Below are positions 569 to 60,389 of a stretch of DNA of 64,000 bases, in pieces (position 1 is the stretch's first letter; each line of letters starts with the position of its first letter). The stretch is from the NCBI GenBank assembly GCA_902627805.1, contig CACOKN010000002.1, positions 1-64,000 on the forward strand, in the 5' to 3' direction. Position numbers and translations under genes: made by a program. The notes beneath the pieces are model-generated. The model was not told where the DNA came from. It searched no databases and was given only the letters and a program-made list of their open reading frames with translations. The DNA is from an uncultured Pelagibacteraceae bacterium (lineage in GTDB: Bacteria > Pseudomonadota > Alphaproteobacteria > Pelagibacterales > Pelagibacteraceae).

Positions 569-2227
569 ATGAAAAAAGAATTATTATTTTGTCCACTAGG
601 AGGTTCAGGTGAAATTGGAATGAACATGAATCTTTTTGGGTATGGTGAGCCTGGAAATCATAAATGGATAATGGTGGATATTGGAGTAACTTTTGCAGAT
701 GATACTATACCAGGTATTGATCTTATATATCCAGACCCGGGATTTATTGTTGAGAGAAAAGATAATTTATTAGGAATAATATTAACTCATGCACATGAAG
801 ATCATATCGGAGCAATTGCACATTTATGGCCAAAATTGAAATGTAAGATTTTTGCAACTCCGTTTACTGCAGTATTAATAAAAGAAAAATTTAGAGAAAA
901 ACATATCGATATAACAAAAGATTTACAGATAGTTGAGTTAAATGGAAATGTGCTATTGGAAGATTTTGAAATTGAGTACATTACTTTAACCCATTCTATT
1001 TTAGAACCCAATGGGTTAAGGATTAAAACTCCAGCAGGTGTTGTTTTACATACTGGTGACTGGAAAGTTGATCCAAATCCCCTAATAGGTGACGAAATAA
1101 ATGCACAACGATTAAAAGAAATAGGTGATGAAGGTGTATTAGCGATGATTTGTGACTCTACAAATGTTTTTAGTGCTGGCAGATCAGGTTCAGAGCTAGA
1201 TGTAAGAAAAAATTTATTAAATATAATGGGTCGATTAAAAAAAAGAGTAATTGTGACATCTTTTGCTTCAAACGTTGCTAGAATGGAGACAGCTTTTTAT
1301 TGTGCTGAACAAACTGGAAGACAAATTTCACTAGTAGGAAGATCTATGCATAGAATTTATAAGGCAGCAAGACAATGTGGATATTTACAAAATACCATTG
1401 ATCCAATTGATCCAAGAGAAGCTAAAAATTTTGCTAGAGAAAAAATAGTTTATTTGTGTACAGGAAGCCAAGGTGAACCAATGGGTGCAATGATGAGGAT
1501 ATCAAATTACACACATCCTGATGTTTTTATTGAAAAAGGTGATGCAGTAATCTTCTCATCAAAGATAATTCCAGGAAATGAGAAAAAACTCTATAAATTA
1601 CACAATCAATTAGTCAAAGATGGAATTGAGGTTATCTCAGAAGAAACAGAATTTATACATGTCTCTGGACATCCAAATCGTGAGGATCTTAAAGATATGT
1701 ATCAATGGGTTAAACCAAAATGTGTGATCCCTGTTCATGGAGAGCACAGACACATGATAGAACATATAAATTTTGCTAAAGAAATGCAAGTACCTCATCC
1801 GGTTCAAGTTGAAAATGGTGATATAGTCAAGCTATACCCTGGTGAAGCACCTGAGGTATATGATAAAGCACCCAGCGGAAGATTGTACCTAGATGGAAAT
1901 GTGAGTGTAGAAGAGGATTCTCAATCAATCAAAGATAGAAAAAATTTGAGTAGCAATGGATATTTGGAAGTTACTATATTAATAACACCTAAAGGTAATA
2001 TCCATAATAACCCTGTCACAACATTTAGGGGTTTACCAATTTATGAAAGAGATGAATTTCTATATGGGTTAGAGGATGAGATTGAGAAAACTACAAGATC
2101 CTTTAAACTTGGAAGCAAACAACAAGAAAGTAATTTAATTGATGCTCTTAAAATTGCTTGTAGAAAATTTACAAAAGAAAAAACAGGAAAAAGACCATAT
2201 ACTAATATTAATTTAGTAAGAATTTAA
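569..2227 (+). CDS. rnj: Ribonuclease J
   Basis: RNase J is a zinc-dependent endonuclease and 5'-3' exonuclease that takes part in mRNA decay and rRNA maturation. The metallo-beta-lactamase core has the HxHxDH motif THAHEDH at residues 73-79, followed by GDW near 169 and the beta-CASP region with GSQGEPMGA near 307 and SGHPNREDL near 371. At 552 residues it is full length. The ATG starts at the base after the coaX stop, and the stop overlaps the next ATG by one base (TAATG), so coaX, rnj and the DUF1467 gene are very likely co-transcribed. The same neighbourhood occurs in many alphaproteobacteria. Confidence 0.95.
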   Translation: MKKELLFCPLGGSGEIGMNMNLFGYGEPGNHKWIMVDIGVTFADDTIPGIDLIYPDPGFIVERKDNLLGIILTHAHEDHIGAIAHLWPKLKCKIFATPFTAVLIKEKFREKHIDITKDLQIVELNGNVLLEDFEIEYITLTHSILEPNGLRIKTPAGVVLHTGDWKVDPNPLIGDEINAQRLKEIGDEGVLAMICDSTNVFSAGRSGSELDVRKNLLNIMGRLKKRVIVTSFASNVARMETAFYCAEQTGRQISLVGRSMHRIYKAARQCGYLQNTIDPIDPREAKNFAREKIVYLCTGSQGEPMGAMMRISNYTHPDVFIEKGDAVIFSSKIIPGNEKKLYKLHNQLVKDGIEVISEETEFIHVSGHPNREDLKDMYQWVKPKCVIPVHGEHRHMIEHINFAKEMQVPHPVQVENGDIVKLYPGEAPEVYDKAPSGRLYLDGNVSVEEDSQSIKDRKNLSSNGYLEVTILITPKGNIHNNPVTTFRGLPIYERDEFLYGLEDEIEKTTRSFKLGSKQQESNLIDALKIACRKFTKEKTGKRPYTNINLVRI

Positions 2228-2472
2228 TGAGTCCAACTGGCTTAGCTATAATCTACATTATTATCTGGTGGATTGTTTTTTTTGCAATTTTACCAATAGA
2301 TGTTGAAAGGAAAAAAATAGTTAAAGTAGATGGTGAAGATCCGGGTTCACCAGAAAATCCTAAAATGTTAAAAAAATTCCTTTATTGTACTGGAATAACA
2401 ACAATTATATTCATAGCCATTTATTTATTAATGAAATTTGAATATTTAAATTTAAGAAATATAATCATTTAA
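2227..2472 (+). CDS. DUF1467 family small membrane protein
   Basis: This is an 81-residue protein with two membrane segments (about residues 5-24 and 53-72) joined by a short hydrophilic loop containing VERKKIVKVDGEDPGSPENP, the kind of loop typical of DUF1467. The family has no known function. It is characteristic of alphaproteobacteria, where it usually sits just upstream of proS, as here. The start overlaps the rnj stop by one base, and proS begins one base after its stop codon. Co-transcription with an RNA nuclease and a tRNA synthetase does not say what it does; the position is more likely conserved by operon structure. Confidence 0.85.
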   Translation: MSPTGLAIIYIIIWWIVFFAILPIDVERKKIVKVDGEDPGSPENPKMLKKFLYCTGITTIIFIAIYLLMKFEYLNLRNIII

Positions 2473-2473
2473 C

Positions 2474-3808
2474 ATGCATATTTCTAAATCTTTTATTCCG
2501 ATTTTAAAAAATAACCCTTCAGAAGCAAAGATAAAGTCCCACCAGCTAATGTTAAGAGTTGGAATGATAAAACAATCTTCAGCAGGCATATATTCTTGGT
2601 TGCCTTTAGGTTTCAAAATAATGAAAAAAATCGAGAGAATTGTGAGAGAAGAGCAAAATAAAATAGGTGCACAAGAAATACTAATGCCCACAATACAATC
2701 GAGCGAGATTTGGAAAGAGAGTGGACGTTACGAGGATTATGGTGAGGAAATGTTACGAATTAAAGATCGCCAAGATCGAGAAATGCTTTATGGACCAACA
2801 AATGAGGAATTAGTAACAGATATTTTTAGATCTTCTCTAAAATCATATAAATCATTACCTCAACTTCTTTATCATATTCAATGGAAATTTAGAGATGAAA
2901 TCAGACCAAGATTTGGAATTATGCGATGTCGGGAATTTTATATGAAAGACGCATACTCTTTTGACATTACAGATGAAGATGCTTTATTTTCTTATAATAA
3001 ATTTTTCTTATCTTACTTAAAAACTTTTAAAAGATTAGATCTTACAGCAATTCCAATGGCAGCTGACACGGGCCCGATCGGTGGAAATCTTTCTCATGAA
3101 TTTATTATCCTAGCAGAAACTGGAGAGAGTAAAATTTATGCAGATAAAAGAATATTTGACTTAAATTTTGAGGGAACAAAACTTGATGTTAAATCCTTAC
3201 TTGCATTAAGAAATCAATATGAAAAATTTTACTCAGTTACTGATGATAAATTTAAAGAGGATGAGTTTAAAGAAAAAGTTTCAGAGAAAAATAGATTGAA
3301 AACAAAAGGTATAGAAGTTGGTCATATTTTTTATTTTGGTGACAAATACTCCAAACCAATGGATGCAGCAGTCGATTTACCTGGAGGTAAAAAAGACTAC
3401 GTAAAAATGGGATCTTACGGTATAGGAGTTTCAAGGTTAGTAGGAGCAATTATAGAGGCAAAATATGACGAAAAAAATGAAATCATGAAATGGCCAATTT
3501 CTGTTGCACCATATGATATTGCGATAATTCCTATGATTAATAAAAATGATACATCTGCACTTGATAAAGCAAACAAAATAAGTTTTGAATTAAATCAAAA
3601 TAATATTGATTCAATTATTGATGATACTGATGAAAATTTATCTTCAAAAATAAAAAAAATGAATTTGATTGGTGCTCCTTATCAAATAATTATTGGAAAA
3701 CAAACTGAAGGTGATTTATTTGAATTTAAAGAAATAAATAAAGAAACTCAAAAAATTAATTTAAAAGAAATTATTAAGATTATTAATAAACAAAAAGCTC
3801 ACAATTGA
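2474..3808 (+). CDS. proS: Prolyl-tRNA synthetase, short alphaproteobacterial form
   Basis: It charges tRNA-Pro with proline. It is a class II synthetase with the catalytic segment GPTNEE at residues 107-112, the motif 2 arginine region RDEIRPRFGIMRCREF at 140-155, and a motif 3-like GSYGIGVSRLVGA near 313. At 444 residues it lacks the large insertion (INS) editing domain of the 570-residue E. coli enzyme, which is the normal state of the short alphaproteobacterial type. The C-terminal anticodon-binding domain (about 345-440) is present. The last codons overlap the TTG start of the following lol gene by four bases (TTGA). Confidence 0.95.
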   Translation: MHISKSFIPILKNNPSEAKIKSHQLMLRVGMIKQSSAGIYSWLPLGFKIMKKIERIVREEQNKIGAQEILMPTIQSSEIWKESGRYEDYGEEMLRIKDRQDREMLYGPTNEELVTDIFRSSLKSYKSLPQLLYHIQWKFRDEIRPRFGIMRCREFYMKDAYSFDITDEDALFSYNKFFLSYLKTFKRLDLTAIPMAADTGPIGGNLSHEFIILAETGESKIYADKRIFDLNFEGTKLDVKSLLALRNQYEKFYSVTDDKFKEDEFKEKVSEKNRLKTKGIEVGHIFYFGDKYSKPMDAAVDLPGGKKDYVKMGSYGIGVSRLVGAIIEAKYDEKNEIMKWPISVAPYDIAIIPMINKNDTSALDKANKISFELNQNNIDSIIDDTDENLSSKIKKMNLIGAPYQIIIGKQTEGDLFEFKEINKETQKINLKEIIKIINKQKAHN

Positions 3809-5037
3809 TTTCAACTTTAGAAAAAGAAATTACATTTAGATTTTTAAAAGCAAGAAAAAAAGACGGCTTTTTAAATGTTATATCTATTTTTTCATTTATT
3901 GGAATAAGCTTAGGTGTTGCAGTCCTAATTATTGTGATGTCAGTAATGAATGGATTTAGATCCGAATTAATAAATAAGATAGTTGGTTTTAATGCTCATA
4001 TAACTGTTGATACTTATGAAAATCAAATTCAAATTGACAAAGTAAAGAATACTAATCTCAATCTTATCGCGAGTGAAATGATATTAAGCAACTCAGGAGA
4101 AGCAATAATTATTAAAAAAGATACCTCTAAAGGTATTGTTTTGAGAGGTTATTCAAGGGAAGATTTTCCCAAACTAAAGATAATAAAAGATAAAACATTT
4201 GTAGGGAATAAAAGTAATTTAACAGGTAACTATATTTCTTTAGGTAAAGAATTAAGTTTCACATTGAATCTTAAGCTCGGTGATGATGTATCAATAATGT
4301 CATCATCAGGTGTAGATACAATAATAGGCAGTATCCCAAAGAAAAAATCTTTTACTATTGTTTCATTGTTTGAAAGCGGCTTAGCAGATTTTGATAATAA
4401 TGTAGCATTTATTAATATTGATACTCTTGATGAATTTATGAATCTCTCAAAAAATGATAGAAAGCTAGAAGTCTATTTAAAGGATCCTCAAAAGATTGAA
4501 AATCAAAAAGAGATTGTTCAAAAAATATTTCCTAATGATTTTGTTTATAGTTGGGCTGATACTAACAGCTCTTTATTCTCAGCTTTAAAAGTAGAACGAA
4601 ATGTAATGTTTATCATATTATCTCTTATAATTATTGTTGCAGCTTTCAATATTATTTCAGGCTTGACGATATTGGTAAAAAACAAAACTAGAGATATTGC
4701 TATTTTAAAATCTATTGGTGTATTAAATAAATCTATTATAAAGATATTTTTTTTGGTTGGGGTAATAATAGGTACTACCGCTACATTGTTTGGAATAATA
4801 TTAGGGGTTACATTTTCTATGTATGTTGAAAATATTAGAAAATTCCTTAGCGATGTTTTTAATATAAGTTTATTTCCTGAAGAAATATATTTCTTAAGCA
4901 CAATGCCGTCTGAAATAAACCCATCTTCTATTTTTATTATTTCATTATGTTCAATTTTTATAACAATAATTGTATCTATATTCCCAGCTATGAAGGCGGC
5001 TAAACTAGATCCAATAAAAGCATTAAAATATGAGTAA
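3805..5037 (+). CDS. lolC: Lipoprotein-releasing ABC transporter permease (LolC/LolE type)
   Basis: This is the inner-membrane permease that extracts mature outer-membrane lipoproteins and hands them to LolA. The first membrane segment (about residues 21-48, with ISLGVAVLIIVMSVMNGF) is followed by a MacB-like periplasmic domain, and three more segments lie at about 265-400, giving the four-helix layout of the family. Only one permease gene is next to lolD, so it probably forms a homodimer, as is usual outside the gammaproteobacteria. The start is TTG at 3805, overlapping the proS stop by four bases. A later start is unlikely because the amphipathic TLEKEITFRFLKARKKDGF segment before helix 1 is conserved in the family. 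Confidence 0.92.
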   Translation: MISTLEKEITFRFLKARKKDGFLNVISIFSFIGISLGVAVLIIVMSVMNGFRSELINKIVGFNAHITVDTYENQIQIDKVKNTNLNLIASEMILSNSGEAIIIKKDTSKGIVLRGYSREDFPKLKIIKDKTFVGNKSNLTGNYISLGKELSFTLNLKLGDDVSIMSSSGVDTIIGSIPKKKSFTIVSLFESGLADFDNNVAFINIDTLDEFMNLSKNDRKLEVYLKDPQKIENQKEIVQKIFPNDFVYSWADTNSSLFSALKVERNVMFIILSLIIIVAAFNIISGLTILVKNKTRDIAILKSIGVLNKSIIKIFFLVGVIIGTTATLFGIILGVTFSMYVENIRKFLSDVFNISLFPEEIYFLSTMPSEINPSSIFIISLCSIFITIIVSIFPAMKAAKLDPIKALKYE

Positions 5038-42865: not shown

Positions 42866-42942
42866 GCGCCCTTAGCTCAGCTGGATAGAGCATCGGTTTT
42901 CTAAACCGAGGGTCGTAGGTTCGAATCCTTCAGGGCGCGCCA
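42866..42942 (+). tRNA. tRNA-Arg (UCU)
   Basis: A complete cloverleaf can be drawn. The acceptor stem is 42866-42872 with 42932-42938. The anticodon stem is 42893-42897 with 42905-42909, enclosing a seven-base loop with anticodon TCT at 42900-42902. The T-arm contains GGTTCGAATCC, and CCA is encoded at 42940-42942. It marks the border between the housekeeping block and the DUF4956/CotH/VTC genes. Confidence 0.95.
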
Positions 42943-43098: not shown

Positions 43099-43797
43099 AT
43101 GAATAATTTAATAGATAATTTATCAAGTGCAAATCAAATCACCCATATATATTTTCCAACAGAGATTATATTAAACTTAACTTTATCTTTTATTTTAGGA
43201 ATAGTAGTTAGTGTTGTTTATAAAAAAACCCATAAAGGTCTAAGTTATTCTCAATCTTTTATGGTAACCAACATCTTCGTTTGTGTGATTGTTTGTATGG
43301 TAATAATGATAATTGGAAATAGTTTGGCAAGAGCTTTTGCGTTAGTTGGAGCATTATCGATAATCAGATTCAGAACAGTCGTAAAAGATACTAAAGATAC
43401 AGCTTATATTTTTTGGTCTTTAGCAGCAGGGATGGCTTGTGGAACTGGTAGTTATTTTTTAGCTTTATCAGGAACTATTATTTTAAGTGGAATTGCATTT
43501 ATATTATATTTTACTAATTTTGGGTCAATTATTAAAAGTGAATTCATTCTTCAATTTAGAACAGCTTCTGGTGATGATAAGATTACATCTGAATATAATA
43601 AAATAATAAATGAATATGCAAAATCATCAACTCTTTTACATTCAGAAGCATCTGGAGATGGAAAAACAATTAAAATAAGTCTAGATATCGTAATGAAAGA
43701 AGATAGAAAACAAGACGAATTAATTTCAAAAATATCTAACGTTACTGGCCTAAGTGAAGTAGTGCTTGTTGCGGCTAAAAGCGATGTGGATTATTAA
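43099..43797 (+). CDS. DUF4956 family membrane protein
   Basis: It has 232 residues. The N-terminal half carries about four membrane segments (residues 22-41, 55-74, 77-92 and 103-140) around the family-specific stretch GALSIIRFRTVVKDTKDTAY (84-103), followed by WSLAAGMACGTGSYF. The C-terminal part (about 150-232) is a soluble alpha/beta domain. DUF4956 has no established function. In other bacteria it is frequently encoded beside VTC-domain and CotH proteins, as here, suggesting it is the membrane component of that system. The gene starts a four-gene unit; a 23-bp gap separates it from the next gene. Confidence 0.85.
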   Translation: MNNLIDNLSSANQITHIYFPTEIILNLTLSFILGIVVSVVYKKTHKGLSYSQSFMVTNIFVCVIVCMVIMIIGNSLARAFALVGALSIIRFRTVVKDTKDTAYIFWSLAAGMACGTGSYFLALSGTIILSGIAFILYFTNFGSIIKSEFILQFRTASGDDKITSEYNKIINEYAKSSTLLHSEASGDGKTIKISLDIVMKEDRKQDELISKISNVTGLSEVVLVAAKSDVDY

Positions 43798-43820
43798 TTT
43801 CTATTTGAAAATATTTTAAG

Positions 43821-44843
43821 ATGACTAATAAAATTGTGAAATATTTTTTTATTTTCACTTTATTAACAGTTTTTGGAATATCTTCATTAGTAGCTTTGGA
43901 CTCAGACCTAAGACGCTATTTATTTGGAAGAGCAATTTCTGCATATAAATTATATCAAATTATTGCTCTTCAGCCATATCTGAAGAAAGATAATATTAAA
44001 GGTGCAAGTCTACAATTAATGAAATACATCCAAACATCTGAAAAATTTGCAAATGGAAAAAGTATATTACTTCTCGGAATTTATGATGCGGCTAAACTTA
44101 TAGAGATTAAAGCCACATCTGAAGAAGATTATTTACATTTAGAAAAAGTCTTTAAAAAATTGGTCGAACAAGATCCAAATCTTTATGAAGCTCAGGTTTG
44201 GTTAGCAAAATCTTATAGTTATAAAGATACCGAATTAGCATTAAAACATATTGATAAGGCTATCGAAATTTCATCTGCACAGGATAGTGCTTACAGGGTT
44301 GCAATTAAAATTGCCCAGGAAAAAGGAGATAAAGATTTGGCAAATTTTTATTGTAATAAATATAAGAATTCAAAATTTGGTGGTTCTATACCAAGATATA
44401 CAAAAAGTTTTTTTGAAGGCAATGTGATTACAAAAATGGCTTTAGAATTTCTACCAGAAAAAAATACTCAAAATTTTTACACACATTCAGGTTTACAATT
44501 AAATAATTTTGATAAATATGAATTCATTCCGATAAAACCTCTTGATGTGAGTGGTTTTAAAATTTATCTAAGTTTTTTACCTGGTATAAAGATAGATTTA
44601 AATGAGATTATTGTTACAAATTCTGAAAATTTAAAATCGATACCTTTAAATGAAATTTCCGTTACTAGTAATTCTGCTTACGTTGATAATAATTATAAAG
44701 ATAGGATATTATTTTTAATAATGAATGAAAGTGATGAAGTTCTTAATTTTAAATTTAAAAATAAAATTTCATCATTAAACAAAATCTCACTTAAAATGAA
44801 AATAAGCAAACTTGATTTAACAAATCATGTCTTATGTAATTAA
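43821..44843 (+). CDS. Membrane-anchored TPR-like protein of unknown function
   Basis: I do not recognise this gene. The 340-residue product has an N-terminal signal anchor (about residues 6-26, YFFIFTLLTVFGISSLVAL). Helical repeats resembling TPR units follow (about 95-190, containing EDYLHLEKVFKKLVEQDP, EAQVWLAKSYSYKDTELALK and DSAYRVAIKIAQEKGD). A beta-rich C-terminal part (about 205-340) has no clear family. It lies between the DUF4956 and CotH-like genes with no gap to the latter, so it is probably a partner protein in the periplasm. Confidence 0.7.
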   Translation: MTNKIVKYFFIFTLLTVFGISSLVALDSDLRRYLFGRAISAYKLYQIIALQPYLKKDNIKGASLQLMKYIQTSEKFANGKSILLLGIYDAAKLIEIKATSEEDYLHLEKVFKKLVEQDPNLYEAQVWLAKSYSYKDTELALKHIDKAIEISSAQDSAYRVAIKIAQEKGDKDLANFYCNKYKNSKFGGSIPRYTKSFFEGNVITKMALEFLPEKNTQNFYTHSGLQLNNFDKYEFIPIKPLDVSGFKIYLSFLPGIKIDLNEIIVTNSENLKSIPLNEISVTSNSAYVDNNYKDRILFLIMNESDEVLNFKFKNKISSLNKISLKMKISKLDLTNHVLCN

Positions 44844-47594
44844 ATGAAAAAGTTAATTAAATTAATAATTTTTTGGCTTTTCCCAGTATCATTTATATTA
44901 ATGATAACATTTGCGATTAATATATTTATTTTAGATTTTAGATATTCTCATCAATCTCATATGATTTATCAACCCCCATTCTCATGGAGTAAATATTACA
45001 CATCTTTATATTTTAAAAAATTTATAATTAATACTTTTGTCTCAAAAAAAATTGGATTACCTCAAGTTCATATTTACGTAAATGAACAATCTAAAGAAAA
45101 GTTACTTAGTAGAACACCTAACTCAACGAAAAAATGGGTTAATGGATCTATGTTAAATAGCGATGGAAAATTACAGGAGATACAGCTCCGATACAGAGGG
45201 GATAATCCTCAAAATTGGTTATTAGAAAAAAAAAATTTAAGATTAAAAACAAGAAAAAAAGAAATGCACGATAGAAGAAGGTATTATGAGTATACTGGTT
45301 TTGATTTGGAGTTGTTCCCAATCAATAATATAGCAAAAAGAATGGGGATTTTAACTAATAACTCAAAATTAGTTGAATTATATATAAATGGACAAAGCAA
45401 TGGTGTTTTTATGCAAGATGAAAGATTTGATGAGAATTATTTACGGCGAAATAAGATAATGCCAATAAATCTTTATAAAGGCGAAAATCATAATGTGGAA
45501 AAAAGAATTGGTCTCGACGAAAATTTATATAATAATCCAGGCTTGTGGGTTAAAACAGCAATTTTTAATCAAAAAGATTTAAATGATAAATCTGATTTAA
45601 AAAATTTTTTAACAACTCTTCAATCAGCAGAAGTAAGAAAAGAAGATTTTTATAATTTACTTGAATATATAGATTTAGAGACTTGGGCTAACTATTTATC
45701 TTTTATGATCTTAACAAAGAGCTATCAGGCAGATCATTTTCATAATGTTCGTATAGCTATTGATCCTTGGAATGGACATGTTTATCCAATTTTGCAGGAT
45801 CCACATCCGGTAAAAATTGATGATAAAATTTATACATTAGAATATTCAAAAGATGACTTAATTTCATTATTAAATAGAAATAGTGAGTTTATTGATAAAA
45901 AATACGATAAATTACTCAACTATGTTATTGATAAAAAAATTTTATTTGAAGAAATTAATTATTTTGAAAAAATTAATGAAAAACTTGAAATATCCTTAAA
46001 AAGGGATCCAGAAATAAATGCAAAAAAAATGTTTAAAGAAATAGAAATATTTAAACAGAATTTGAAAAAGACTGAAAGAATAATTAAAAATAAACTTTTT
46101 AAAAAGCCATCTGTTGGATGGAGTAAAAATTTATATGGTATAAATATTTTTGTAGAGGGTGAAATGCCGGCTAGCACTATTGAATTAATTTTTGATGATG
46201 AAATTCCAAAATGGGCTGGATTTGATACTAATTATAACGGACTTATTGATGAAAATGAGCATAAATTTTTCCCTAACAAAAACAATAGCATTATTATCCC
46301 CGCAAAATTATATGCGAATAGAATTGCTTATAGTTTAAGAAAAACAAATATGTTTGCTAATCCAAATTATAAAATTGAAGCATCTCCTACAAAGTTTAGT
46401 ATAATTACGGAAAAAAATATTAAGCCAAATAATATACGGGCTCAAAATCATTTCTCACAAGAAAAATTTTTTGTAAAATATTTTACAAATTTTGATGCTG
46501 CTGAAACCAATAAATTTAATAATATTATTTTTGAAGAGTTATTGTTCAATAACGACAAAAAAACTCAAAGTATTTCAGGTCAAATAAAAGTCAAAAAGAA
46601 TTTAGTTTTTACTAAACCTGTAGAAATAAGCCCTGGCACTAAATTTTTAATAAGTGAAGGTGCTCATGTAATATTTAAAAACAAAGTAATTGCAAATGGC
46701 ACTATTGAAAAACCAATCATATTTCAAAGAGATAAAAAAAAGGCTAAACCTTGGGGTTCAGTAAGTTTAATTGGAAAAAAAACAACTAATAGTGAAATTT
46801 CAAATATAATTATTGATGGAGGAAGTGGAGGATATTACAATCAAGTTAGTTTCACATCTATGTTTTCATTGCATAATACAAGTAATATTTTTATTAAAAA
46901 TTTAAAATTAATTAATCATTCAAAATATGATGATATGATGCATGTTATTTATTGTGATGATATTACTATTGATAATGCTGAATTTATGAATGCTCCCGGT
47001 GATGCTATTGATGTTGATATTTCAACAAATATAAAAATTAATAATTCAAAATTTATAAATTCAAATAACGATGCAATTGATTTTATGGAAAGTGAAGCCT
47101 TAGTTGAGTCCTCCTTTATTTATGGCTCAAAAGATAAGGGTTTATCTGTAGGTGAAAGTTCAAATATACTTATATATAACACTCTGCTTGAAAAAAATAA
47201 TATCGGGATCGCAGTTAAAGATAAATCAATAGCTAAAGTTCTTCATGTAAGTTTTAGAGACAACGAAATACAATTAAGTGCGTATAGAAAAAATTGGCAG
47301 TATGGAGGTGGTGGAAGTGCAAGTATTTACAGGTCTATCATTTCTGCTGAAAGGAATTTATTAGAAGTTTCAAACGAATCAGATTTAGAAATAAATGATA
47401 CGTCAATTATTGGATTAAATTTGATGGAGGAAAAAAATATATTAATAAAAAATGTTGATTTCTTAGATTATTCCAGTGAACAGCCTAATAAAAAAAGTCA
47501 GGTTGTTTCTAAAGATTTAGAATTGACACATCCCTTGTATTCAAATTTACAAGTAAATCGAAACCAAAATCGAGGTTATGATTTCAAAAATTAG
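44844..47594 (+). CDS. CotH-kinase-like protein with EF-hand loop and beta-helix domain
   Basis: The 916-residue product begins with a membrane segment (about residues 5-28). The N-terminal half resembles the CotH family of atypical protein kinases: RYRGDN at 116-121, ELFPINNIAKRMGILTNN and VELYINGQSNGVFMQDE in the region about 155-200, and PILQDPHP at 315-322 where CotH proteins have a conserved PWDxD-like acidic motif. Residues 461-472 (DTNYNGLIDENE) form a textbook EF-hand calcium loop. The C-terminal part (about 590-870) has repeated I/V-N-N-S-x-F-I units typical of a right-handed parallel beta-helix. It is probably exported or periplasmic. Its substrate is unknown. Confidence 0.75.
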   Translation: MKKLIKLIIFWLFPVSFILMITFAINIFILDFRYSHQSHMIYQPPFSWSKYYTSLYFKKFIINTFVSKKIGLPQVHIYVNEQSKEKLLSRTPNSTKKWVNGSMLNSDGKLQEIQLRYRGDNPQNWLLEKKNLRLKTRKKEMHDRRRYYEYTGFDLELFPINNIAKRMGILTNNSKLVELYINGQSNGVFMQDERFDENYLRRNKIMPINLYKGENHNVEKRIGLDENLYNNPGLWVKTAIFNQKDLNDKSDLKNFLTTLQSAEVRKEDFYNLLEYIDLETWANYLSFMILTKSYQADHFHNVRIAIDPWNGHVYPILQDPHPVKIDDKIYTLEYSKDDLISLLNRNSEFIDKKYDKLLNYVIDKKILFEEINYFEKINEKLEISLKRDPEINAKKMFKEIEIFKQNLKKTERIIKNKLFKKPSVGWSKNLYGINIFVEGEMPASTIELIFDDEIPKWAGFDTNYNGLIDENEHKFFPNKNNSIIIPAKLYANRIAYSLRKTNMFANPNYKIEASPTKFSIITEKNIKPNNIRAQNHFSQEKFFVKYFTNFDAAETNKFNNIIFEELLFNNDKKTQSISGQIKVKKNLVFTKPVEISPGTKFLISEGAHVIFKNKVIANGTIEKPIIFQRDKKKAKPWGSVSLIGKKTTNSEISNIIIDGGSGGYYNQVSFTSMFSLHNTSNIFIKNLKLINHSKYDDMMHVIYCDDITIDNAEFMNAPGDAIDVDISTNIKINNSKFINSNNDAIDFMESEALVESSFIYGSKDKGLSVGESSNILIYNTLLEKNNIGIAVKDKSIAKVLHVSFRDNEIQLSAYRKNWQYGGGGSASIYRSIISAERNLLEVSNESDLEINDTSIIGLNLMEEKNILIKNVDFLDYSSEQPNKKSQVVSKDLELTHPLYSNLQVNRNQNRGYDFKN

Positions 47595-47609
47595 ATTTAA
47601 TTTATTTTT

Positions 47610-48353
47610 ATGAAAGATAATCAATTTTTTCAAAGATATGAATTCAAATATATCTTAAACAAAGAAATATCAGATCAGATAGAGAAAGAGGCTAAAAATT
47701 TTATGACCTTTGATAGTTTTGTTCAAAAAAGATTAGATAATCAATATTTTGTTCGTTCTTTATATTACGAAAATATCTTCTCATCTAATTTTTTTGAAAA
47801 AGTTGATGGAATGAGAACTAGAAGAAAATATAGACTAAGGACTTATGGTAAATCATTAGAGGAAAATGTCCCAATTTTTTTTGAAGTAAAGGGTAGAAAT
47901 TTGGAAAGGACTTATAAAAAAAGAATGAATGTGGATTTTAAATATTTAAATTTTTTTTTAAATAAAAAGCTACATTATAAGCTTTTAGATACTTACCCTG
48001 ATAATGAATTGATTCAAAATTTTGTATTTGATTCTTTTAAAAAAGACTTAAAACCTTATATTATAGTTGATTATACCCGACGACCATATGTAAATAAGTT
48101 TGGTCTATATTTTAGACTAACATTTGATAAAAGTTTATTAAGTACAAAAGCTAACAATCTTTTTTATAATGCAAATCATCTATCTTGGCTTGAATGTAAG
48201 GCAGGCTATACAATCTTAGAAGTTAAATTTGATAGAAGCATACCAGCATGGTTTCATAGGATAATACAATCATATAATTTGAATAGAAAATCTATATCAA
48301 AATTTGCCATTGGAATGACTACATGTGGTGTTGCAAAAGAAACATCTGATTAA
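47610..48353 (+). CDS. VTC-domain protein (polyphosphate polymerase-like)
   Basis: It is a 247-residue single-domain member of the triphosphate-tunnel superfamily related to the yeast Vtc4 polyphosphate polymerase. It shows RYEFKYIL (residues 9-16), the basic strand RRKYRLRTYG (71-80), FFEVKGR (90-96), IIVDYTRRPY near 150 and LECKAGYTILEVKFD near 201; these supply the Arg/Lys/Glu residues expected to line the tunnel. There is no SPX or membrane domain, so it should be cytoplasmic. In other bacteria such proteins occur with DUF4956 and CotH proteins. Activity is inferred from family only. Confidence 0.85.
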   Translation: MKDNQFFQRYEFKYILNKEISDQIEKEAKNFMTFDSFVQKRLDNQYFVRSLYYENIFSSNFFEKVDGMRTRRKYRLRTYGKSLEENVPIFFEVKGRNLERTYKKRMNVDFKYLNFFLNKKLHYKLLDTYPDNELIQNFVFDSFKKDLKPYIIVDYTRRPYVNKFGLYFRLTFDKSLLSTKANNLFYNANHLSWLECKAGYTILEVKFDRSIPAWFHRIIQSYNLNRKSISKFAIGMTTCGVAKETSD

Positions 48354-59423: not shown

Positions 59424-60389
59424 TTAAAACCAACTATTTGGAATAATAATGTAGTGAATTGCTAAAACAATTCCAACTGATACGCTTAATCCAAAGATCA
59501 TTTTAAGAAAGTCTTTACCAATTAATGGGAAAACATACTTAAACTTGTAATCTTTGTTCATAGTTGAAATTGCAAGTTCTCTACCACATAATAAACCAAC
59601 GAAAACCCATGTAGTTGACATAGGCAAATCATTAAGTTCTTTAAAGTAGAATAAGACACCAGCATAAATTACGTTGATAATTGTAGCCGATCTTGCATAT
59701 CTAGTTCCAGTTTTTTCTAAAACTACAGTTTGTATTCGTCCACCTTGAATGTAAAAGATGTAAAATAGTAAAACCGTAAAATATGTCATTACAGTAAGCA
59801 GAATTGTTATATCTAGTTGTCTTGGAAGATATACGGCAATATTTGCTACGTCGTGAGATAACCAAACCCACCATAGCCAACCTGAAGTAACCCATACTGA
59901 GTTTCTCCAAAAGCCTATATATTTTTCATCAACTTCATCTAATTTTTCATTGATAAATTTCGATACAACTATCCAAGCAATATAAGCGACCATTGCTGCT
60001 AAACCGTAACCAACTACACTTTTTAACAACATTTTTTCAAGCACAACTGTTGAAGCAAATGCGGAAAGAACTAAAAAGGTTGTTGATACAGGTATTCCAA
60101 CTCTTGTTAATAATAAGAGTATTGCTGGTGCTACTGCATGATACCATTGAATTTCTTGATAAGGTATTCTAGTTAATCTTCCGTATGAAATATCACCATC
60201 ATATGAATACCATCCCCATGCTAAAGCTAAAATCATTACACTAGAAGCTGATCCTGCTAGTACGTACCATTTAAACCACTTCTTTTTTGAAGCTATAAAT
60301 GTACCTAATGTTTGAATTGAGTCGTTAGCGATTACGCTATAACCGGCAAGGGCAAACCCTATAACCGTGTAAACTAAAGTCATTTCCAT
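59424..60389 (-). CDS. PiT-family (PHO-4-like) anion transporter
   Basis: It is an integral membrane protein with eight to ten helices and the internal duplication of the PiT family: first-half motifs ANDSIQTLGTF (residues 21-31) and PVSTTFLVLSAF near 101, and second-half motifs SHDVANIAVY near 178 and PMSTTWVFVGLLCGRE near 259. It probably co-transports phosphate with a cation. Some relatives, such as Bacillus CysP, move sulphate, so the anion is not certain. It has 321 residues. The start ATG at 60389 has a good AAGGAG seven bases upstream, preceded by a 164-bp leader. It is convergent with manC, 20 bp away. Confidence 0.8.
   Translation of the reverse strand: MEMTLVYTVIGFALAGYSVIANDSIQTLGTFIASKKKWFKWYVLAGSASSVMILALAWGWYSYDGDISYGRLTRIPYQEIQWYHAVAPAILLLLTRVGIPVSTTFLVLSAFASTVVLEKMLLKSVVGYGLAAMVAYIAWIVVSKFINEKLDEVDEKYIGFWRNSVWVTSGWLWWVWLSHDVANIAVYLPRQLDITILLTVMTYFTVLLFYIFYIQGGRIQTVVLEKTGTRYARSATIINVIYAGVLFYFKELNDLPMSTTWVFVGLLCGRELAISTMNKDYKFKYVFPLIGKDFLKMIFGLSVSVGIVLAIHYIIIPNSWF

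Follow-up and report, generated by a model that had tools for sequence, protein, structure and literature searches.

How cells drive phosphate chemistry beyond the cytoplasm, where adenosine triphosphate (ATP) is scarce, is an old question, and a group of genes in SAR11, which are very abundant marine bacteria, bears on it. The window analyzed here is a stretch of 64,000 nucleotides (nt), positions 1 to 64,000 of contig CACOKN010000002.1 (assembly GCA_902627805.1, 1,137,314 bases), from an uncultured Pelagibacteraceae bacterium. Within it, four neighboring genes encode a DUF4956 membrane protein, a 340-amino-acid protein of weak family resemblance, a CotH-like protein with a beta-helix and a VTC-domain protein. 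What might these genes do together? The linkage of DUF4956, CotH/beta-helix and VTC genes in SAR11 exceeds chance, and some versions of the module include an exported pyrophosphatase. One possible answer, to which we give somewhat less than an even chance when the whole chain of steps is counted, is that the module is a polyphosphate-driven device for modifying the cell surface.

Gene content, linkage and active sites

A first-pass annotation of the window had reported four adjacent open reading frames (ORFs) on one strand, and the ORFs lie exactly at the coordinates it gave, on the plus strand with spacers of 23, 0 and 15 nt. Its three main family assignments also hold, with each family scoring above its curated Pfam cut-off. 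The first gene (43099..43797, 232 amino acids) matches DUF4956 (PF16316, E-value 9.6e-15, 55.2 bits against a cut-off of 30.6). The third (44844..47594, 916 amino acids), an exported protein by its predicted N-terminus, matches CotH (PF08757, E 1.3e-10, 41.7 bits against 23.8) and Beta_helix (PF13229, 39.1 bits against 25.9), and the fourth (47610..48353, 247 amino acids) matches VTC (PF09359, E 2.4e-34, 119.4 bits against 23). The hydropathy scan found no hydrophobic segment in the VTC protein, in line with its description as soluble, and a single N-terminal segment in each of the CotH-like protein (residues 7-25) and the 340-amino-acid protein encoded by the second gene (43821..44843). This second protein had been described as membrane-anchored and TPR-like. 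The TPR-like label is weak, because the Pfam scan placed no family over its cut-off and the sole hint of a TPR type is a sub-threshold match to the NCBIfam PilW model (E 0.0025, 17.4 bits against 154).

In order to determine which of these genes belong together, relatives were compared in a first sample of 150 genomes and a genus-wide sample of 399, both including the genome of the window (G numbers denote genomes and L numbers loci). Among the 150, VTC was found in 19, DUF4956 in 18 and Pfam CotH in 9, all in the genus of the window, and genus-wide VTC was present in 65 of the 399. A CotH/beta-helix gene lies in the same cluster in 17 of the 18 other VTC-bearing relatives of the first sample, with the SAR11 CotH proteins mostly gathered by adjacency and by a profile built from themselves, which does match solved CotH structures. 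The exception, G020, has a contig break at this place. DUF4956 is absent from only one of the 18 other VTC loci (G034), where the contig starts inside the CotH gene. Gene context covers 21 of the 65 VTC-bearing genomes, again counting that of the window. Close relatives of the module also occur in the Pelagibacteraceae records AG-404-P08, AG-916-A10 and AG-907-I02, which supports assigning the window to SAR11. In the loci scanned, gene order varies while the gene set stays together, and chromosomal location and flanking genes differ between SAR11 genomes. The conserved linkage is thus that of DUF4956, CotH/beta-helix and VTC rather than that of a four-gene unit; scanning the ORFs of the other loci gave one homologue of the 340-amino-acid gene (L024), and this gene was rejected as a core part. 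The polyphosphate kinase PPK1 was matched in 50 of the 150 genomes and in 3 of the 19 VTC-bearing ones, the window's included among the 19; the remaining 16, the window genome among them, gave no match, although the genomes are incomplete.

The VTC protein retains the residues expected of a polymerase. Across 17 SAR11 rows, the invariant columns include R9, E11, K13, K73, R75, R77, E92, K94, K103, R157, R169, E204, K206, S230 and K231, and the best structural match of the SAR11 profile is yeast Vtc4 (3g3q, E 1.8e-16). The Vtc4 tunnel residues K200, R264, R266 and E426 are in register with the SAR11 proteins, with numbering assigned by eye, and R75, R77 and E204 of the window align with R264, R266 and E426. 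K13, R75, R77, E204 and the C-terminal S230-K231 pair, the positions that correspond to the tunnel and the C-terminal SK of Vtc4, are invariant in all 17 rows. A figure legend describes a Vtc4 variant changed at R264, R266 and E426 (PMC9911596), a change that we read as inactivating. Judged by these kept active-site residues, it is well supported that the VTC protein of the window would be an active polyphosphate polymerase using ATP in the cytoplasm, which agrees with the role of polyphosphate maker first proposed for it.

The CotH-like protein has the fold of CotH with a changed catalytic loop. Pfam CotH at an E-value of 0.1 detects only 2 of the 15 SAR11 proteins of alignment A2, while the SAR11 profile matches Bacillus cereus CotH (5jd9) at E 1.2e-12, and a predicted model (mean predicted local distance difference test score, pLDDT, 67.5) matches 5jda by Foldseek at E 1.2e-10 with a template modeling (TM) score of 0.67 by target length. 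The kinase-fold part spans approximately residues 73-420 (45060..46103, plus strand, borders approximate). In B. subtilis CotH, D228 and D251 are required for activity (PMC7821199), and these positions were compared in 26 rows, a set that excludes four incomplete ones belonging to L133, L134 and L138. The metal-binding Asp (D251) is kept as D319 in the window and is Asp in 25 of the 26 rows, with Glu in L026 and also in an excluded L133 fragment. The catalytic Asp (D228) is replaced by A296, with D297 next to it, in the window and by His in 22 of the 26 rows; an Enterococcus plasmid copy has Asp there. As D228 is replaced and D251 kept, the protein has the CotH fold but an altered catalytic loop and is not a plain CotH kinase; the comparison does not support the first proposal of an ordinary CotH kinase. 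Relative to the spore-coat kinase itself (5jd9/5jda), it shares the kinase-like fold but is membrane-anchored and, at its full length, carries a C-terminal beta-helix.

That right-handed beta-helix occupies approximately residues 575-856 (46566..47411, plus strand), as delimited by conservation and secondary structure, and D720, D743, D746, D764, K765, D793 and S795 are invariant in 15 SAR11 rows. Its Foldseek matches are weak and are to beta-helices of GH87, AlgE4, GH28, PL6 and NosD. A GH28 identity was considered from a motif order that looks alike by eye and was rejected, with GH28 listed for none of the 15 members in Pfam at E 0.1; weak pectate-lyase matches occur in 2 of the 15 (best 0.0025).

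The DUF4956 protein is predicted to combine MgtC-like helices with an ACT-like C-terminal domain, as a low-confidence model (mean pLDDT 68.2) gives Foldseek matches to the MgtC C-terminal domain and to ACT domains. R90, R92 and K96 are invariant in the alignment, and an R-F/Y-R motif is found in 34 of the 35 DUF4956 ORFs identified by a local profile. Where this motif sits relative to the membrane is a guess from its charge, and the simple hydropathy scan did not pick up the helices adjacent to it.

An exported pyrophosphatase as an optional part

Family-I pyrophosphatase (PF00719) scored over its cut-off in only 6 of the 399 genus genomes, as against 9 of 14 controls. Each of the six copies belongs to a VTC module (G012, G037, G042, G043, G656 and G587). 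The chance of six such genomes falling among the 65 with VTC is 1.5e-5, before adjacency is taken into account. In G012 and G042 the gene separates CotH from VTC, and in G037 and G656 it precedes DUF4956; in G043 it is joined to the C-terminus of CotH, and G587 has a CotH fusion beside VTC. A third fusion of this kind occurs in AG-404-P08 (L059), outside the 399-genome sample. The four separate pyrophosphatases have signal-peptide-like starts by eye, the G043 fusion continues an exported CotH start, and the G587 gene begins beyond the edge of its contig. In alignment A4, which comprises four SAR11 rows and one from Vibrio and left out L059, L166, L167 and the Bacteroidota rows, the 13 canonical family-I residues are invariant, and pyrophosphatases in the PDB match at 2.3e-32. 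The family is present with its full active site in some module relatives, in forms that are exported, lipoprotein-like or fused to CotH. Confined to the module and exported or CotH-fused, the enzyme suggests that polyphosphate or pyrophosphate is processed beyond the inner membrane, and makes phosphate chemistry there more likely.

A wider scan covered 80 pyrophosphatase loci, many on short contigs, where a VTC gene past the contig end would be missed. The VTC module is present in seven of them, three from SAR11 (L059, L074, L103) and four from Bacteroidota (L131, L133, L134, L138). The pyrophosphatase is therefore an optional part of the module; a universal role was rejected from its share in both the VTC genomes and these loci, and the module of the window, in which the TPR-like protein is present, lacks it. 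All four Bacteroidota enzymes have lipobox-like starts by eye and are read as lipoproteins. In L131, pyrophosphatase, beta-helix, VTC, DUF4956 and CotH are five neighbors, with the beta-helix and CotH on separate proteins (158 and 131 bits with uniterated local profiles). In L133, L134 and L138, a 562-amino-acid partner carries a beta-helix (136-146 bits, uniterated profile), and a kinase domain appears only after iteration of the local profile; these three were not counted as CotH loci. With no kinase domain found in these three by Pfam or the uniterated profile, their pyrophosphatase goes with VTC, DUF4956 and the beta-helix and not clearly with a kinase.

In a tree of 87 rows, the SAR11 and Bacteroidota module pyrophosphatases fall into different supported groups (among the rows, L040 and L103 are identical, with contigs of equal length, and apparently a single record; L029 nearly duplicates L074; the later-added L166 and L167 have no row). 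The parsimonious reading of these separate groups is that the module acquired the enzyme two or more times, separately in SAR11 and Bacteroidota; the tree requires three or more changes of label, and one gain with two losses somewhere could also account for them. A lipoprotein-like pyrophosphatase of Prochlorococcus MIT 9302 (L062) belongs to a group that the tree places with the SAR11 enzymes, and exchange of the gene between these ocean bacteria is possible. Proteins of about 512-524 amino acids ending in the same type of pyrophosphatase were also observed (L046:7044-8588, L093, L095, L096, L101, L119, L122, L123), and the one from Vibrio pelagius is annotated "ParB-like".

Other lineages, known systems and the insertion site

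Outside SAR11, CotH, DUF4956 and VTC occur together without a pyrophosphatase in five other Proteobacteria loci (L054-L058), with a beta-helix in L055-L058. In L054, the CotH protein (1839-4904) has domains of lamin-tail and chitobiase type, a build unlike the beta-helix form, and lies beside VTC, DUF4956 and an HlyD-type gene. On Bacillota plasmids from Pseudobutyrivibrio and Planococcus, CotH-VTC-DUF4956 is found near glycosyltransferase genes. Sugar-nucleotide or glycosyltransferase genes adjoin six SAR11 modules as well (L024, L034, L036, L059, L074 with its near copy L029, and L166), and the scanned neighbors of the window, L028, L031 and L035 are non-polysaccharide genes. Two loci from the class of the window (L051, L053) have DUF4956-VTC followed by a PHO4 phosphate transporter, with no CotH visible.

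The trio itself is already known. CotH, polyphosphate polymerase, DUF4956 and DUF4832 are accessory genes of Gram-positive Pel loci, the first three being the same adjacent families (PMC7112168, PMC12345266) and sharing with the module a secreted CotH, a membrane protein with an ACT-type C-terminus and a soluble polymerase domain. Here CotH carries the beta-helix and has lost the catalytic Asp, and some versions have the exported pyrophosphatase. Neither pelDEADAFG nor DUF4832 lies beside the window module, as judged by profiles of the flanks and by eye for the other ORFs of the window. The analyses of PMC12345266 are reported to have found no trio outside Pel loci; the loci described here lie outside them. 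Mutants of Streptococcus intermedius that lack the CotH gene or SIR_1592, which encodes an MgtC/ACT membrane protein and which we take to be the DUF4956 gene, are altered in the amount of Pel and in aggregation (PMC12345266). The yeast complex of Vtc1, Vtc3 and Vtc4 (PMC9911596) likewise pairs a VTC polymerase, its tunnel residues kept here, with a membrane partner, but the module has no SPX domain in the Pfam scan, and its partner is the MgtC-like DUF4956 protein instead of Vtc1-type helices. In NELoc-2 of Clostridium perfringens, VTC-domain, CotH and glycosyltransferase genes share one cluster, with two VTC copies and a HEAT-repeat gene; no beta-helix or pyrophosphatase is listed in the excerpted text (PMC2879425). 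In the open-licence papers searched, we did not find the SAR11 beta-helix form, the loss of the catalytic Asp or the exported, fusion-forming pyrophosphatase described, and searches of the open-licence PMC literature for pyrophosphatase with CotH and polyphosphate, or for SAR11 with CotH, returned no relevant paper. That the joint function is not established, as the first-pass annotation had it, agrees with this literature, in which the deletion data are partial and come from a Pel locus (PMC12345266).

In the window, the module is inserted after a transfer RNA (tRNA) gene, tRNA-Arg (tct) at 42866..42942 on the plus strand (ARAGORN, Rfam), with profile matches to NtrX, TrkA and TrkH upstream and an amino-acid ABC transporter downstream. 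Of 31 genomes searched for aapJ, 22 gave a match, and the 12 same-genus relatives among them were examined. All 12 have this tRNA-Arg between trkH and aapJ, and none has the module there. Nine of these relatives have only 126-175 nt separating the tRNA from aapJ, compared with 5,615 nt in the window; in the other three (G017, G009, G015) the gap holds 1.1-1.3 kilobases (kb) of other content. G002, G009 and G012 carry the module at another chromosomal place and not at the tRNA-Arg site. With the site free of the module in relatives and occupied by other content in three, the module of the window is best read as an insertion at a spot that takes other cargo. The island of about 1.1 kb in G015 (L142) has at its far end a second copy of the tRNA 3' portion, which suggests tRNA-directed insertion where the window carries its module. 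G017 (L145) and G009 (L147) each have a single glycosyltransferase-like gene of 375-377 amino acids between tRNA-Arg and aapJ, which by eye resembles the glycosyltransferase (Pfam) that follows the module in L166. A tRNA-held mobile element was rejected for the window module, since no copy of the tRNA 3' end is present at its distal side. A viral origin was rejected as well: in one scan of viral contigs, the sole DUF4956 match (L165) has VTC beside a MiaB-like gene and by eye reads as host DNA. Elsewhere in the window, a minus-strand gene at 59424-60389 encodes a membrane protein that by eye looks like a short phosphate permease and has no Pfam family at E 0.001.

A possible mechanism and its rivals

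If the module modifies the cell surface with polyphosphate, the soluble VTC protein would first make the chain from ATP in the cytoplasm. DUF4956, with its basic R-F/Y-R motif, may then hold VTC at the membrane and pass the chain out, by analogy with the membrane part of the yeast VTC complex and its basic path (PMC9911596). In the periplasm, the anchored CotH-like protein might move phosphoryl from polyphosphate to an acceptor held by or near the beta-helix, most likely an envelope glycan and less likely a protein. The chain would end as pyrophosphate, which the exported pyrophosphatase, where present, could convert to phosphate, as its linkage and fusion suggest. Such a scheme would suit the periplasm, in which ATP is scarce. 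A more specific version, which we consider somewhat less likely, has surface glycans phosphorylated by an enzyme of CotH fold that draws on polyphosphate rather than ATP, with VTC feeding an export route through DUF4956 and an exported pyrophosphatase devoted to the last piece of the chain.

Several observations weigh against this chain of steps. Its two central events, export of polyphosphate by DUF4956 and its use by CotH proteins, are ones that we infer. Phosphotransfer itself is uncertain because the catalytic Asp of CotH is replaced, and B. subtilis CotH takes ATP in vitro (PMC7821199). The pyrophosphatase is present in only 6 of the 65 VTC-bearing genus genomes, many of them incomplete, and not in the window; it is found in none of the five proteobacterial trio loci and none of four Bacillota plasmid loci. 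Conversely, 73 of its 80 relatives are without VTC within the stretch examined, and the exported enzyme thus has other uses. Neither Pfam nor an uniterated local profile detects a CotH kinase domain in L133, L134 or L138. The S. intermedius VTC-gene mutant still aggregates and makes Pel (PMC12345266), and DUF4956-VTC with PHO4 in L051 and L053 fits plain phosphate storage. Confidence in polyphosphate-driven modification is limited by three of these points in particular: the changed catalytic loop, the rarity of the pyrophosphatase and the Bacteroidota loci without a clear kinase.

Some of the same evidence would suit a glycan-accessory scaffold, in which the CotH-like protein binds or assembles glycan without catalysis, VTC and DUF4956 do no more than tune polyphosphate in the cytoplasm or signal phosphate status, and the pyrophosphatase is a loose neighbor. 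The trio in Pel loci (PMC7112168), the sugar genes beside several modules, the unkept catalytic Asp and the retention of Pel and aggregation in the VTC-gene mutant (PMC12345266) all fit this account, as do the weak likeness of the beta-helix to carbohydrate-active folds in Foldseek and its presence without a clear kinase domain in three Bacteroidota loci. We nevertheless consider it somewhat unlikely: the metal-binding Asp persists in nearly every CotH row, the fusion of CotH to pyrophosphatase and the confinement of the latter to the module in the genus are hard to explain without phosphate chemistry, and the neighbors scanned around the window, L028, L031 and L035 are of other kinds than polysaccharide genes.

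Kinase-fold enzymes with nucleotidyl or acyl-adenylate chemistry are exemplified by SelO and SidJ. A CotH-like protein of that kind would release pyrophosphate, with the pyrophosphatase pulling the reaction and VTC supplying or sensing phosphate, and both the replaced catalytic Asp beside a kept metal-binding Asp and the direct fusion of the two enzymes would suit it. It would, however, require a nucleotide outside the membrane, with no nucleotide exporter seen in the opened modules, and it leaves no direct role for VTC, which defines them; we judge it improbable. Phosphate storage and scavenging, to which we assign the same low probability, would have VTC and DUF4956 store polyphosphate in the phosphate-poor ocean and the exported pyrophosphatase gain phosphate, with CotH a separate adhesive surface protein. 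The PHO4 transporter beside DUF4956-VTC in two alphaproteobacterial loci, the exported-type pyrophosphatases without nearby VTC in many bacteria, including Prochlorococcus MIT 9302, and the 16 VTC-bearing genomes, incomplete as they are, without a PPK1 match are consistent with storage, but the steady linkage of CotH/beta-helix with VTC and the CotH-pyrophosphatase fusions are left unexplained.

CotH, VTC and DUF4956 occur together from rumen Bacillota to ocean SAR11, and the literature that we found assigns them no joint function. The exported pyrophosphatase, in this genus found only in the module and in some cases fused to CotH, predicts polyphosphate or pyrophosphate outside the membrane, which can be tested at the bench. 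If a CotH-fold enzyme does use polyphosphate in place of ATP, this would represent a novel means of driving reactions outside the inner membrane, with parts common to marine SAR11, Bacteroidota and Gram-positive exopolysaccharide loci, and the module bears on how SAR11 bacteria may decorate their surfaces.

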